From Candidatus Methanomethylophilaceae archaeon (GTDB lineage: Archaea; Thermoplasmatota; Thermoplasmata; Methanomassiliicoccales; Methanomethylophilaceae), in assembly GCA_017461225.1 (NCBI GenBank), contig JAFTYV010000050.1:1-39576 (forward strand): a stretch of 39,576 nt of DNA, given 5' to 3'. The translations under genes and the position numbers were made by a program. Below, in pieces: positions 20,650-23,818 of this stretch (positions are counted from its first letter, which is position 1; each line of letters starts with the position of its first letter). Under the pieces are notes generated by a model. That model was not told the DNA's origin, did not search any database, and saw only the letters and a program-made list of their open reading frames with translations.

Positions 20650-20780
20650 AAAAACCACCAAACCGTCCTACTGTCAACTGGGTCAGATAAGAAGAATAAG
20701 ACCAAGCTGAATCGTGTTGCAGATCATCTCAATGACCTCGGACGGTTGATGGTAAATTTTCGTCATGATATATAAAACAA
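20650..20780 (-). promoter_or_regulatory. leuA promoter and candidate attenuator leader
   Basis: On the minus strand, reading 5' to 3': TATA box TTTATATA (20776-20769); predicted start near 20745; segment AACCGTCC (20747-20740) running into the leader-peptide Shine-Dalgarno; the leader ORF; a hairpin CAGCTTGGTC (20709-20700) with GACCCAGTTG (20684-20675), ten pairs with one mismatch and one wobble, covering the Leu codons; GGACGGTT (20668-20661), the exact complement of the first segment; a run of five T (20654-20650); then the leuA ATG. Pairing of the outer segments would close the leader ORF and mask its ribosome site. A ribosome stalled on Leu codons would open the inner hairpin. How these shapes would affect transcription or leuA translation is inference. 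Confidence 0.55.
20683..20727 (-). CDS. Leu/Ile-rich leader peptide upstream of leuA (14 residues)
   Basis: The minus strand encodes MICNTIQLGLILLI followed by TGA: four Leu, all CTT, and four Ile in 14 residues. CTT is uncommon in these genes, where CTC and CTG dominate. A Shine-Dalgarno GAGGT lies seven bases before the ATG. A TATA box (20769-20776) predicts a transcript start near 20745, about 20 bases before this ORF. It lies inside the leuA leader and inside two competing RNA pairings. This is the anatomy of an amino-acid attenuator leader such as bacterial leuL. Expression has not been shown, and a chance ORF of this length is possible. Confidence 0.6.
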   Translation of the reverse strand: MICNTIQLGLILLI

Positions 20781-20821: not shown

Positions 20822-20990
20822 TGCGATTTAATACTGTTCCGGCCCAGGCCAGCCGGGTGGGAAACGGCCCTGATCGCCCGCCGCCGTCAGCGGCGGCGGG
20901 TTCTGGAGGCTGCCACGGCACTCGGGGTGCCGCGGATGCTTGCAACGGCCTGTTGACGCATCGCCGACTCGATGGAGGATTTAGTATTTA
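20822..20990. ncRNA. Possible structured RNA or hairpin-rich element
   Basis: About 170 GC-rich bases sit between AT-rich, TATA-like flanks on both sides (GATTTAATAC near 20825 on plus, TTTTAAATACT near 20985 on minus). A perfect 10-bp stem, CCCGCCGCCG-TCAG-CGGCGGCGGG, spans 20877-20900. A second stem, CGGCAC-TCGGG-GTGCCG, spans 20916-20932 and extends through a mismatch. CCGGC/GCCGG can pair near the left end. No coding frame is convincing. I looked for SRP RNA, RNase P RNA, 5S and tRNA signatures and found none. The orientation is undecided, although the minus-strand TATA has the better sequence. Confidence 0.35.
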
Positions 20991-21115: not shown

Positions 21116-23818
21116 TCAGCAGGCGAAGTATCCCTTGGTCTTGAGCATGTGCTTCTTGACGAGGTGCGATCCGAAGAAGTACACGCATGCTATGAACGGC
21201 ATCCACAGCAGGGTGAACATCGGGATCGCGAGCATCTCGCCGTCGAATCCGGCGATGGCCGCCCAGAGGTCCCCGGTGAAGGGGAGGGTCGTACCGACGA
21301 CCAGCGCGATGATGGTCGTGGCCACCAGGATCTTGGAGGACCAGGCCTGGAAGAAGGGCAGCTTGTTGGTACGCACGATGTGGATCGACCACACCTGCAT
21401 CCAGTACTGCTCTATGCACCAGATGGACTGGAACAGGATCATGACGGCGGGCGCCGTGGTGCTGAGGTCGTCACCGCTGAGGACGGCGTCCATCGCGGTT
21501 CCGTATCCCTCGACGGGCACGGAGGCGAACACGACGAAGATCATGAACAGCCACGTCATTATATCGGTGATGGGGCACATCGGTCCGTACCTGAACATGA
21601 CCGACTTGAGGTTGTCCGGATCCCATGTGCGCGGCGTGCGGACGAACTCGTCCTCGACCTTGTCCCACGGGATGACCATGCAGGCGAAGTCGTTGATCAG
21701 GTTGAAGATCAGGATCATGATCGCGCCCATGGGTTCGAAGTTGAACAGGAGCGATCCGAGGATCAGCGAGAACATGTATCCGAAGTTGATCGAACCGATC
21801 ATCTTGACGTACTTGATGGTGTTGACGTAGACCTTCCTTCCCTCGATGGCCCCGGTCTTGAGGATTCCGAGGTCCTTCTCGAGGAGGATCATGCTGGCGG
21901 TCTCCTTGGCGATGTCGGAACCGGTGTCGACGGATATGCTCACGTCGGCGTTCTTCATGGCGACGACGTCGTTGATACCGTCACCCATGAGTCCCACGGT
22001 GTGTCCGTTGGCGCGGAGCGCGAGGACGATGCGGGACTTGTTGTCGGGCGTGAGGCGTGCGAATATGCTGGTGTTCTCCACGGCGGCCTTGAGCTCGTCG
22101 TCGCTCATCTCGTCGATCTGGGTTCCGATGAGGATGTTCTCCACATCCATGCCCAGCTCGTTGCAGACGTGCGCGGAGACGTACTCGTTGTCACCGGTGA
22201 GGACCTTGACCTCGATGCCGTACTCCCTCATGTCGCTGATCGCGACCTTGGCGGAGGGCTTGACGGGGTCGGTGAACACCATGAAACCCGCGAAGATCTG
22301 GTCGGACTCGTCCGCCGCGCTGAACTCGGTGCGGCCGACGGGCAGGTACTTGTGGGTGATACCGAGGACGCGCATGCCCTTCTGGCTGTACCACTCCACG
22401 AGCCCCAGGAGCTCGTTGGTCATCCTGTCATCGAGGGGCTGGATGTTCCTCTCCTCGTCCAGGTACCCGACGGAGATGGACAGGATCTCGGGAATGGCAC
22501 CCTTGGTGATCATCATGTTGACCTCGTCGTCCTTGTTGACGACGACGGTTGCCCTCCTCCTGACGAAGTCGAAGGGGACGTCGGCCACGTACGCGTAACT
22601 CTCCATCTCCTCGACGTCGAGGAACTCCTCGGCGTACTCGTCCAGCGCCCAGTCGATCTGGTTGGTCGAGGACTTCAGGTTGCCGCTGTTGAGGCAGGCC
22701 ATGAGCTCGACGGAGTGGCTGGGGTTGCCGTAGACGTCGTTGATGGTCTCGACGGAGATCCTGTTCTGGGTGAGGGTACCCGTCTTGTCGGAGCAGAGGA
22801 CGTCCATCGCACCGAAGTTCTGGATCGCGGTGGTGTCCTTGACGATGACCTTGTTCTTGGACATGTCCACCGCACCCTTGGCGAGGTTGGTGGAGACGAT
22901 GGTCGCCAGCATCTCGGGCATGAGTCCGATCGCCAGCGTCAGTGAGAACACGACGGCCTCCATGAAGCCGTCGAATGTGAACGTTCCCGCGTTGAGGTAG
23001 TCCTTGGCGATCATGATCAGGAACACGGGCGGGACCATGTACACCATGATCTTGATCAGGACGTTCGCGGTCTTCTTGCTGCCCTTGTCGAAGGTGGTTG
23101 CCGGACCCTTCTTGGAGAGCTTCTCCGTCATGGATCCGAATATGGTGTCGTCCCCGACCGCGACGACCACGGCCTCGGCGGAACCGCCGACGACGTTGGT
23201 CCCCATGAACGCCATGTTGTCGCATCCGAGGATCTGCTCACAGTCGTTGGTGTGGGCGTACTTGGTCACACCCCCGGACTCGCCAGTCAAGGCGGACTGG
23301 TCGACCTTGAGGTGGTTGGAGCTGACGATCCTCACATCGGCGGGGACCATGTCACCCGTGTCGAGGATGATGATGTCCCCCACGACGAGCTCCTTCGAGT
23401 CGATCTCGGTCTCCACACCCTCACGGCGGACCGTGATGATCGTGGTGACCATGCTCACCAGTTTGGCCGCGGCCTTGCTGCTCCGCGTCTCCTGGACGAA
23501 AGTCATCGTACCGCTCACTAGGATGAGGGTTGTGAGGATGACGAAGTAGATGATGTCCGGATCAAGGACCATCCAAAGAATGTCGATTACTGCTAAGGCG
23601 ATTATGAATACGTTTACGAATGAGTGATAAAGTCTCTTGAGTACCACGTGCTTGTTGTGGTTAGTGACCTCGTTCTTACCGTATTTGATACGGGATGTCG
23701 TGATCTCCTCATTGTAGTGTCCTTCCGGCCTACTGTCGTACTCGCTCATGACGGACGCGGCGTCCTTCGACGCTGCGCTCCTCATTCTCTGTTCAATAGT
23801 CGACGAACCATTTACCAC
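21116..23818 (-). CDS. mgtA: P-type ATPase, Mg2+-importing (P3B, MgtA-like)
   Basis: A 900-residue membrane pump. The actuator motif TGES is near residue 179, the membrane motif GLMPEML near 298, the phosphorylation site DKTGT near 344, TGDN near 540, and GDGIND in the hinge. The GLMPEMLATIVSTNLAKGAV segment and the C-terminal helices fit bacterial MgtA/MgtB better than Ca2+ or heavy-metal pumps, so it probably drives Mg2+ into the cell. The first codon is GTG at 23818, matching a near-leaderless transcript from the TATA box at about 23841-23848. An ATG 11 codons later is an alternative. No MgtC-like partner is visible. Substrate is inferred from family motifs. Confidence 0.85.
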   Translation of the reverse strand: MVNGSSTIEQRMRSAASKDAASVMSEYDSRPEGHYNEEITTSRIKYGKNEVTNHNKHVVLKRLYHSFVNVFIIALAVIDILWMVLDPDIIYFVILTTLILVSGTMTFVQETRSSKAAAKLVSMVTTIITVRREGVETEIDSKELVVGDIIILDTGDMVPADVRIVSSNHLKVDQSALTGESGGVTKYAHTNDCEQILGCDNMAFMGTNVVGGSAEAVVVAVGDDTIFGSMTEKLSKKGPATTFDKGSKKTANVLIKIMVYMVPPVFLIMIAKDYLNAGTFTFDGFMEAVVFSLTLAIGLMPEMLATIVSTNLAKGAVDMSKNKVIVKDTTAIQNFGAMDVLCSDKTGTLTQNRISVETINDVYGNPSHSVELMACLNSGNLKSSTNQIDWALDEYAEEFLDVEEMESYAYVADVPFDFVRRRATVVVNKDDEVNMMITKGAIPEILSISVGYLDEERNIQPLDDRMTNELLGLVEWYSQKGMRVLGITHKYLPVGRTEFSAADESDQIFAGFMVFTDPVKPSAKVAISDMREYGIEVKVLTGDNEYVSAHVCNELGMDVENILIGTQIDEMSDDELKAAVENTSIFARLTPDNKSRIVLALRANGHTVGLMGDGINDVVAMKNADVSISVDTGSDIAKETASMILLEKDLGILKTGAIEGRKVYVNTIKYVKMIGSINFGYMFSLILGSLLFNFEPMGAIMILIFNLINDFACMVIPWDKVEDEFVRTPRTWDPDNLKSVMFRYGPMCPITDIMTWLFMIFVVFASVPVEGYGTAMDAVLSGDDLSTTAPAVMILFQSIWCIEQYWMQVWSIHIVRTNKLPFFQAWSSKILVATTIIALVVGTTLPFTGDLWAAIAGFDGEMLAIPMFTLLWMPFIACVYFFGSHLVKKHMLKTKGYFAC

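Follow-up and report, generated by a model that had tools for sequence, protein, structure and literature searches.

The leuA upstream region and its leader

We analysed the region upstream of leuA in a 39,576-nucleotide stretch of DNA from Candidatus Methanomethylophilaceae archaeon (GenBank assembly GCA_017461225.1, contig JAFTYV010000050.1; hereinafter the window), for which an initial annotation had suggested a leader-peptide attenuator. On the minus strand, to which all features below belong, leuA (20649-19063) codes for 2-isopropylmalate synthase (NCBIfam NF002085, 616 bits) and heads a leuA-leuC-leuD-leuB cluster, being followed on the same strand by a leuC-type gene and then by reading frames matching the leuD and leuB types. 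Upstream of it lies a TATA box (TTTATATA, 20776-20769; match at 8 of 8 positions), 41 nucleotides (nt) before the ATG (20727) of a 14-codon open reading frame (ORF) coding for MICNTIQLGLILLI (20727-20683; stop TGA, 20685-20683). This leader ORF has a Shine-Dalgarno sequence (SD) GAGGT (20739-20735) seven bases upstream of its ATG. Four of its codons are the rare CTT for Leu (beginning at 20706, 20700, 20694 and 20691) and four code for Ile (two ATT and two ATC). The elements that the annotation had listed are thus present. Because the TATA box stands 41 nt before the leader ATG, and given the usual spacing between TATA box and transcription start in archaea, the leuA mRNA should begin near 20746 (±3), that is, with the first base of the 5′ arm of a predicted long-range helix, P1.

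The two arms of P1 are AACCGTCC (20747-20740; core ACCGTC, 20746-20741) at this predicted 5′ end and GGACGGTT (20668-20661) directly upstream of the leuA SD GGTGG (20659-20655). A second helix, P2, is formed by GGTTTG (20664-20659) and CAAACC (20637-20632), the latter within leuA codons 5-6 and conserved at the nucleotide level, so that the leuA SD falls within the loop closed by P2. The leuA SD is separated from the leuA ATG (20649) by a T5 tract (20654-20650). A third candidate helix, P4, has its 5′ arm slot (ACCGGACU in relatives) at 20706-20699, overlapping the first conserved Leu codon of the leader.

Conservation of the leader and its rare leucine codons

A single 14-codon ORF with at least four Leu codons is only mildly unusual by chance (P about 0.02). 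We searched for LeuA in 150 relatives, 102 of which matched, and in 300 genomes of the class Thermoplasmata, and then read the upstream regions. This yielded 103 curated leaders before leuA. The window's own family accounts for 42 of them and five further families of the order Methanomassiliicoccales for 40, which makes 82 leaders for the order, covering all six sampled families; the other 21 belong to three more Thermoplasmata families, f8 (18), f27 (two) and f24 (one). In the own family a TATA box lies 38-47 nt upstream in 41 of the 42 cases. The encoded peptides are 12-21 residues long and, while differing in their N-terminal parts, converge on Leu near the stop codon (e.g., MICNAFIGLLLLLE, MIFAQHIGLLLIE, MVDVHDVPDILLL, MRHNKMICLLLLLH, MNAERLGLLLILRLVPAPLL and MANKSNELIILPLGLLLLA, each followed by a stop). 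A strict rule, combining an SD-like motif, a length of 12-21 codons, at least three Leu and at least two Leu among the last six residues, was satisfied by 77 of 110 leuA upstream regions as against 104 of 5500 dinucleotide shuffles (1.9%), and in the control genes by none of 29 upstream regions of hisG, one of 25 of ilvD and one of 26 of ilvB. Judged by these sequence comparisons, the leuA leader pattern is in excess of chance expectation. About two dozen leuA loci from Nitrososphaeria, Brockarchaeota and related lineages showed no conserved SD-led Leu leader.

Two observations on leuA itself were made along the way. Of the 30 other genomes in the window's own genus, 20 had no leuA match at E <= 1e-100, including several nearly complete ones, and because of this we suggest that leucine synthesis was lost repeatedly among the close relatives of the window. 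Among the other families of the order, many leuA promoters (L060-L089, e.g., L060, L068 and L070) have the motif AGCAAYG immediately upstream of the TATA box.

Host codon frequencies rest, for each genome, on a single leuA or ilvB coding region, to which three genes of the window were added. In the own family, 63% of the leader Leu codons are CTT, as against 4.1% in leuA genes (958 codons), and in the other families TTG makes up 52% of the leader Leu codons compared with 8% in ilvB genes. When each genome is taken separately, its leader uses Leu codons rarer than the host expectation in 29 of 29 cases, in line with the annotation's remark that bacterial leu leaders use codons rare in their host. 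The bias follows the host: in locus L018, where leuA itself uses CTT at 11 of 30 Leu codons, the leader has CTG, CTA, TTA, TTG and TTG, and no CTT. Relative to expectation, the observed host frequency of the leader codons stands at 0.10 for Leu, whereas Ile comes to 0.70 and the remaining residues, taken together, to 0.90; base composition by itself would not single out Leu. Across families, moreover, Leu is the sole leader residue retained. As the Leu codons are about ten-fold rarer than expected, as against 0.7-fold for Ile, and Ile is not retained across families, the signal is likely Leu alone. The joint Leu/Ile sensing originally proposed was accordingly set aside in favour of Leu.

Leaders with a different residue bias occur before ilvB. 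In ten genera of families f2, f3, f5 and f6 of the Methanomassiliicoccales (L213-L228, e.g., L213, L219 and L223), an ORF upstream of ilvB ends in runs of Val, Ile and Leu (peptide ends AVVIIIS, GVVVVLIR, VVVVL and STVIVVLG, each before a stop), with V, I or L at 5-7 of the last 8 residues in the 16 loci. Right after the leader stop comes a stable stem with varied but complementary arms (GAGGCAUCC with GGAUGUCCUC, GAGGACAUCC with GGGUGUCCUC, GAGGACGU with GACGUCCUC). Where only a GTG or TTG start is available or no clear SD is seen, as in some of these ORFs, the start is uncertain; in the window's own family, a Val/Ile leader before ilvB is absent. These Val/Ile leaders with their covarying post-stop stem are apparently undescribed. 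No single argument against coincidence is stronger than the fit, at two operons, between leader residues and the product of the pathway.

Other amino-acid genes gave no such pattern: no His leader was found in the 29 hisG upstream regions, none in the ilvD control, and no Trp-rich leader in the trpE control (in a thrC scan the profile match started within the gene, making it unusable as a control). Upstream of trpE in families f5 and f3 (L271, L272, L273 and L276) there are short, apparently leaderless ORFs with one conserved Trp (MKQKRDFLWKQKKEI and MKRSRDLLWKLGNEFQ, each before a stop), and the trpE promoters also bear TGTACA-like repeats resembling a TrpY-type box. Upstream of hisG in family f6 (L243, L248 and L257) lies a conserved block around TTTATGGGGACAGG(A/C)TATCACC with no His-rich ORF.

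Alternative helices and the proposed switch

For P1 and P4, the own-family helix statistics were computed on 36 sequences and gauged against 500 shuffles. In P1 (ACCGTC/GACGGT) 98.1% of the cells are paired, two-sided changes occur at three of the six pairs, and the covariation score was matched by none of the 500 shuffles, a comparison that sequence relatedness can inflate. The arms fit each other better than they fit those of other sequences: the duplex energy of own versus swapped arms is -19.4 versus -16.8 kcal/mol in the own family and -18.6 versus -15.7 kcal/mol in the other families of the order; by the same measure, the f8 arms were not better paired with their own partner than with swapped ones. 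Individual variants include ACCATC/GATGGT in L028, ACCGTC/GGCGGT in L029 and ACCACC/GGTGGT in L005; in L004, one arm of which is misplaced by MAFFT, the true pairing is ACCACCT/AGGTGGT. The outer pairing of the initial annotation is therefore present and covaries, and the comparison with related leuA upstream regions that the annotation had recommended finds the ORF, its Leu content and this pairing conserved with compensatory changes. Unconstrained RNAalifold does not recover P1, because it prefers local hairpins and because P1 excludes P2.

P2 (GGTTTG/CAAACC), which encloses the leuA SD and ATG, is paired in 99.1% of the cells, with a two-sided change in L027 (GGTTCG/CGAACC). A comparable start hairpin, with two-sided changes at three pairs, is found in the other families, and in f8 a comparable hairpin has the leuA SD itself within the stem. 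P1 and P2 are mutually exclusive since both use the same GGT (20664-20662). In P4, the leader segment ACCGGACU, which includes the first conserved Leu codon, is complementary to GGUUUGGU over the leuA SD; 89.9% of its cells are paired, and its covariation of 0.305 compares with 0.248 in shuffles and was reached by one of the 500, again subject to inflation by relatedness. P4 is poorly paired in the window sequence and is not populated in the folding models. For the other families, a pairing of CAUUGCU with the leuA SD might correspond to P4, but it shows no covariation (94% paired) and was not relied on. In those families the leader start region pairs with CUCAUUGCU past the leader stop (73% paired, two-sided changes at 5 of 9 pairs). 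As for the inner stem that the annotation had placed over the Leu codons, it is weak in the window sequence, although visual inspection shows stems at that place in many relatives. When the window and 24 related loci were scanned against Rfam, nothing relevant matched.

A short motif, CCAGUGAGAGCUAGG, occurs in own-family loci between the leader stop and the P1 3′ arm (20682-20667), often as a GNRA-like loop (AGU-GAGA-GCU), with a second copy conserved at the nucleotide level inside the leuA codons (CCAGUGAGAACGCUAGG; 20633-20617); both copies of the window are degenerate. Further upstream, between leuA and a gene for a magnesium-type P-ATPase (21116-23818, likewise on the minus strand), there is a perfect GC-rich inverted repeat (CCCGCCGCCG-TCAG-CGGCGGCGGG, 20877-20900).

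We modelled the leader by partition functions in which the stretches covered by a ribosome were forced to be single-stranded (the same 36 sequences, 5′ end at -22). Accessibility of the leuA SD under these ribosome masks did not discriminate the states, and we therefore scored the helices themselves. The probabilities of P1 and P2 were 0.57 and 0.53 with no ribosome, 0.00 and 0.93 with a ribosome at the leader start, 0.27 and 0.71 with a ribosome stalled at the first Leu codon, and 0.50 and 0.56 with one stalled at the last. In these models the start is closed during leader initiation and more open with the ribosome on the Leu codons, a direction that would fit a leucine-starvation switch, though we hold this part tentatively, at somewhat short of even odds.

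At leuA we thus have an SD-led ORF between the promoter and the first gene, a conserved enrichment in rare Leu codons, and exclusive helices. Taken together, these features support the attenuator interpretation of the initial annotation, and we put at about 80% the probability that the leader is an attenuator reading the charging of tRNA-Leu and controlling leuA, and via leuA the leu operon, with translation initiation as the most likely point of control. The output at leuA translation initiation is favoured because the conserved alternative helices enclose the leuA SD and start. With the anatomy, its conservation, the rare-codon bias, the covariation of P1 and the mutual exclusion of P1 and P2 demonstrated, we infer that ribosomes stall, which way the switch turns and how leuA is affected, as follows. 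The leuA mRNA would begin with the P1 5′ arm. As long as leucine is plentiful, the rare Leu codons would be passed fast and fresh ribosomes would keep loading at the leader SD; they would cover the P1 5′ arm, P2 (possibly also P4) would form, and leuA would be poorly translated. When charged tRNA-Leu is scarce, a ribosome would stall on the Leu codons, at about codons 8-13, and mask the P4 arm. As the first conserved Leu is at about codon 8-9, a ribosome of the usual size stalled so near the leader start would hinder the next initiation, leaving the 5′ end free for P1, whose formation would withdraw the shared GGU from P2 and so expose the leuA SD.

Several observations weigh against this mechanism. 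In the folding models the state with no ribosome resembles the stalled state, the leuA SD is predicted to be mostly paired in every ribosome state, so that P1 versus P2 alone shows the switch, and P1 is weak if the mRNA 5′ end lies at -17 from the leader AUG or downstream. P2 has only the one two-sided change in the own family, and nine own-family loci have no Leu leader (L039, L040, L041, L043, L046, L053, L191, L206 and L207). Finally, the similar-looking ilvB/leuA leaders of Streptomyces coelicolor did not behave as classical attenuators on mutation (PMC1262725); because mutation of those leader codons gave no classical attenuation, anatomy of this kind is not proof of it.

Of the other explanations, the one that survives best, albeit as an unlikely one, keeps the same Leu-codon sensor and makes the output premature transcription termination, either at a U-tract or dependent on FttA, the factor to which archaeal polarity is ascribed (PMC12548453), with the stalled or coupled ribosome protecting the transcript. 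A T5 tract in or near the stretch between SD and ATG is indeed found in 21 of the 42 own-family and 10 of the 18 f8 leaders, and a translational block of leuA could itself feed FttA termination. However, in the other families T5 occurs in just 4 of the 40 leaders, the T tract is not immediately preceded by any conserved GC-rich terminator stem, and the helices that are conserved close around the leuA SD and start. The T5 tract of the annotation thus exists in the window but is not conserved across the order, and a T-tract transcription terminator is poorly supported.

The remaining explanations dispense with the sensing of tRNA charging. Arrest by the nascent peptide, in the manner of TnaC or SecM and in response to free leucine or another ligand, might be read into the LPLGLL(I/L)LA that the f8 peptides have in common, but this motif falls in a predicted RNA stem, only Leu is retained across families, and codon rarity should be irrelevant to a peptide sensor; we therefore consider it improbable. 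Slightly less likely still is constitutive translational coupling, in which ribosomes terminating near leuA would simply re-initiate there. The distance from leader stop to leuA start is short and fairly constant (as a rule 31-45 nt in the window's family, 37-42 in most of the others and 32-37 in f8), yet published series from E. coli and H. volcanii show little coupling past 30 nt (PMC12548453), which makes re-initiation at 31-45 nt unlikely; furthermore, the leader rarity is specific to Leu codons, and the leader residues switch to Val/Ile before ilvB. Least credible of all is that ACCGTC...GACGGT is a DNA operator pair for a repressor looping from promoter to gene start with the ORF incidental: the 5′ copy does sit at the predicted transcription start, but the arms co-change even among close relatives (L028 versus L029; L005), as expected of base-pairing and not of a shared repressor, and the Leu codons are left unexplained.

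Relation to known systems and implications

Leader-peptide attenuation is a textbook bacterial mechanism, whose general working is illustrated by leu/ilv attenuators such as that of Corynebacterium ilvBNC. The tRNA-Leu attenuator proposed here shares with these the SD-led short ORF, the rare end-product codons and the alternative mRNA structures before the first pathway gene, but the archaeal leaders have no conserved terminator hairpin with a U run, and their output is likely translational. In that respect they recall the ermC/cat translational attenuators, where stalling of a ribosome in the leader ORF alters the pairing of the downstream SD; unlike in those systems, the signal here would be uncharged tRNA-Leu and not an antibiotic, the 5′ end of the mRNA takes part in the key helix, and the trigger may be hindered re-initiation as opposed to direct melting. 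T-box riboswitches likewise subject amino-acid genes to control by tRNA charging, whereas at the leuA leader the signal would be read by the ribosome. Rfam, including T-box models, yielded nothing for the window at E <= 1 and nothing at E <= 0.5 for 15 related loci, among them termite-gut relatives (the presence of Termite-leu, RF01730, in release 15 was unchecked). The actinobacterial LEU element (PMC1262725) is akin in its alternative RNA structures, and its Leu-codon stretch can pair with the leuA SD region, as the candidate helix P4 might; its helices and sequence differ, however, and the present leaders belong to archaea with TATA promoters and have an outer helix that brings the predicted mRNA 5′ end together with the region of the leuA start. 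Neither a pseudoknot nor a regulator protein came to light at these leaders, no search having been aimed at them.

No case of leader-peptide attenuation in archaea was found in the literature searched, from which most subscription journals were outside the scope. The element has the look of a leucine sensor worked by the ribosome, a type of control that, as far as we found, had been known only from bacteria. Its signatures, namely an SD-led ORF, rare end-product codons that track the host and covarying alternative helices, span several families of an archaeal class. On balance, Thermoplasmata probably have a standing system of amino-acid-specific, ribosome-operated attenuation, for Leu at leuA and for Val/Ile at ilvB, with its output at translation initiation via the extreme mRNA 5′ end. 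If this is true, no such system would have been described in Archaea before. If it works as proposed, these archaea would tie amino-acid synthesis to the speed of translation without needing a protein for the purpose, and the mechanism either would be ancient or would have evolved twice.
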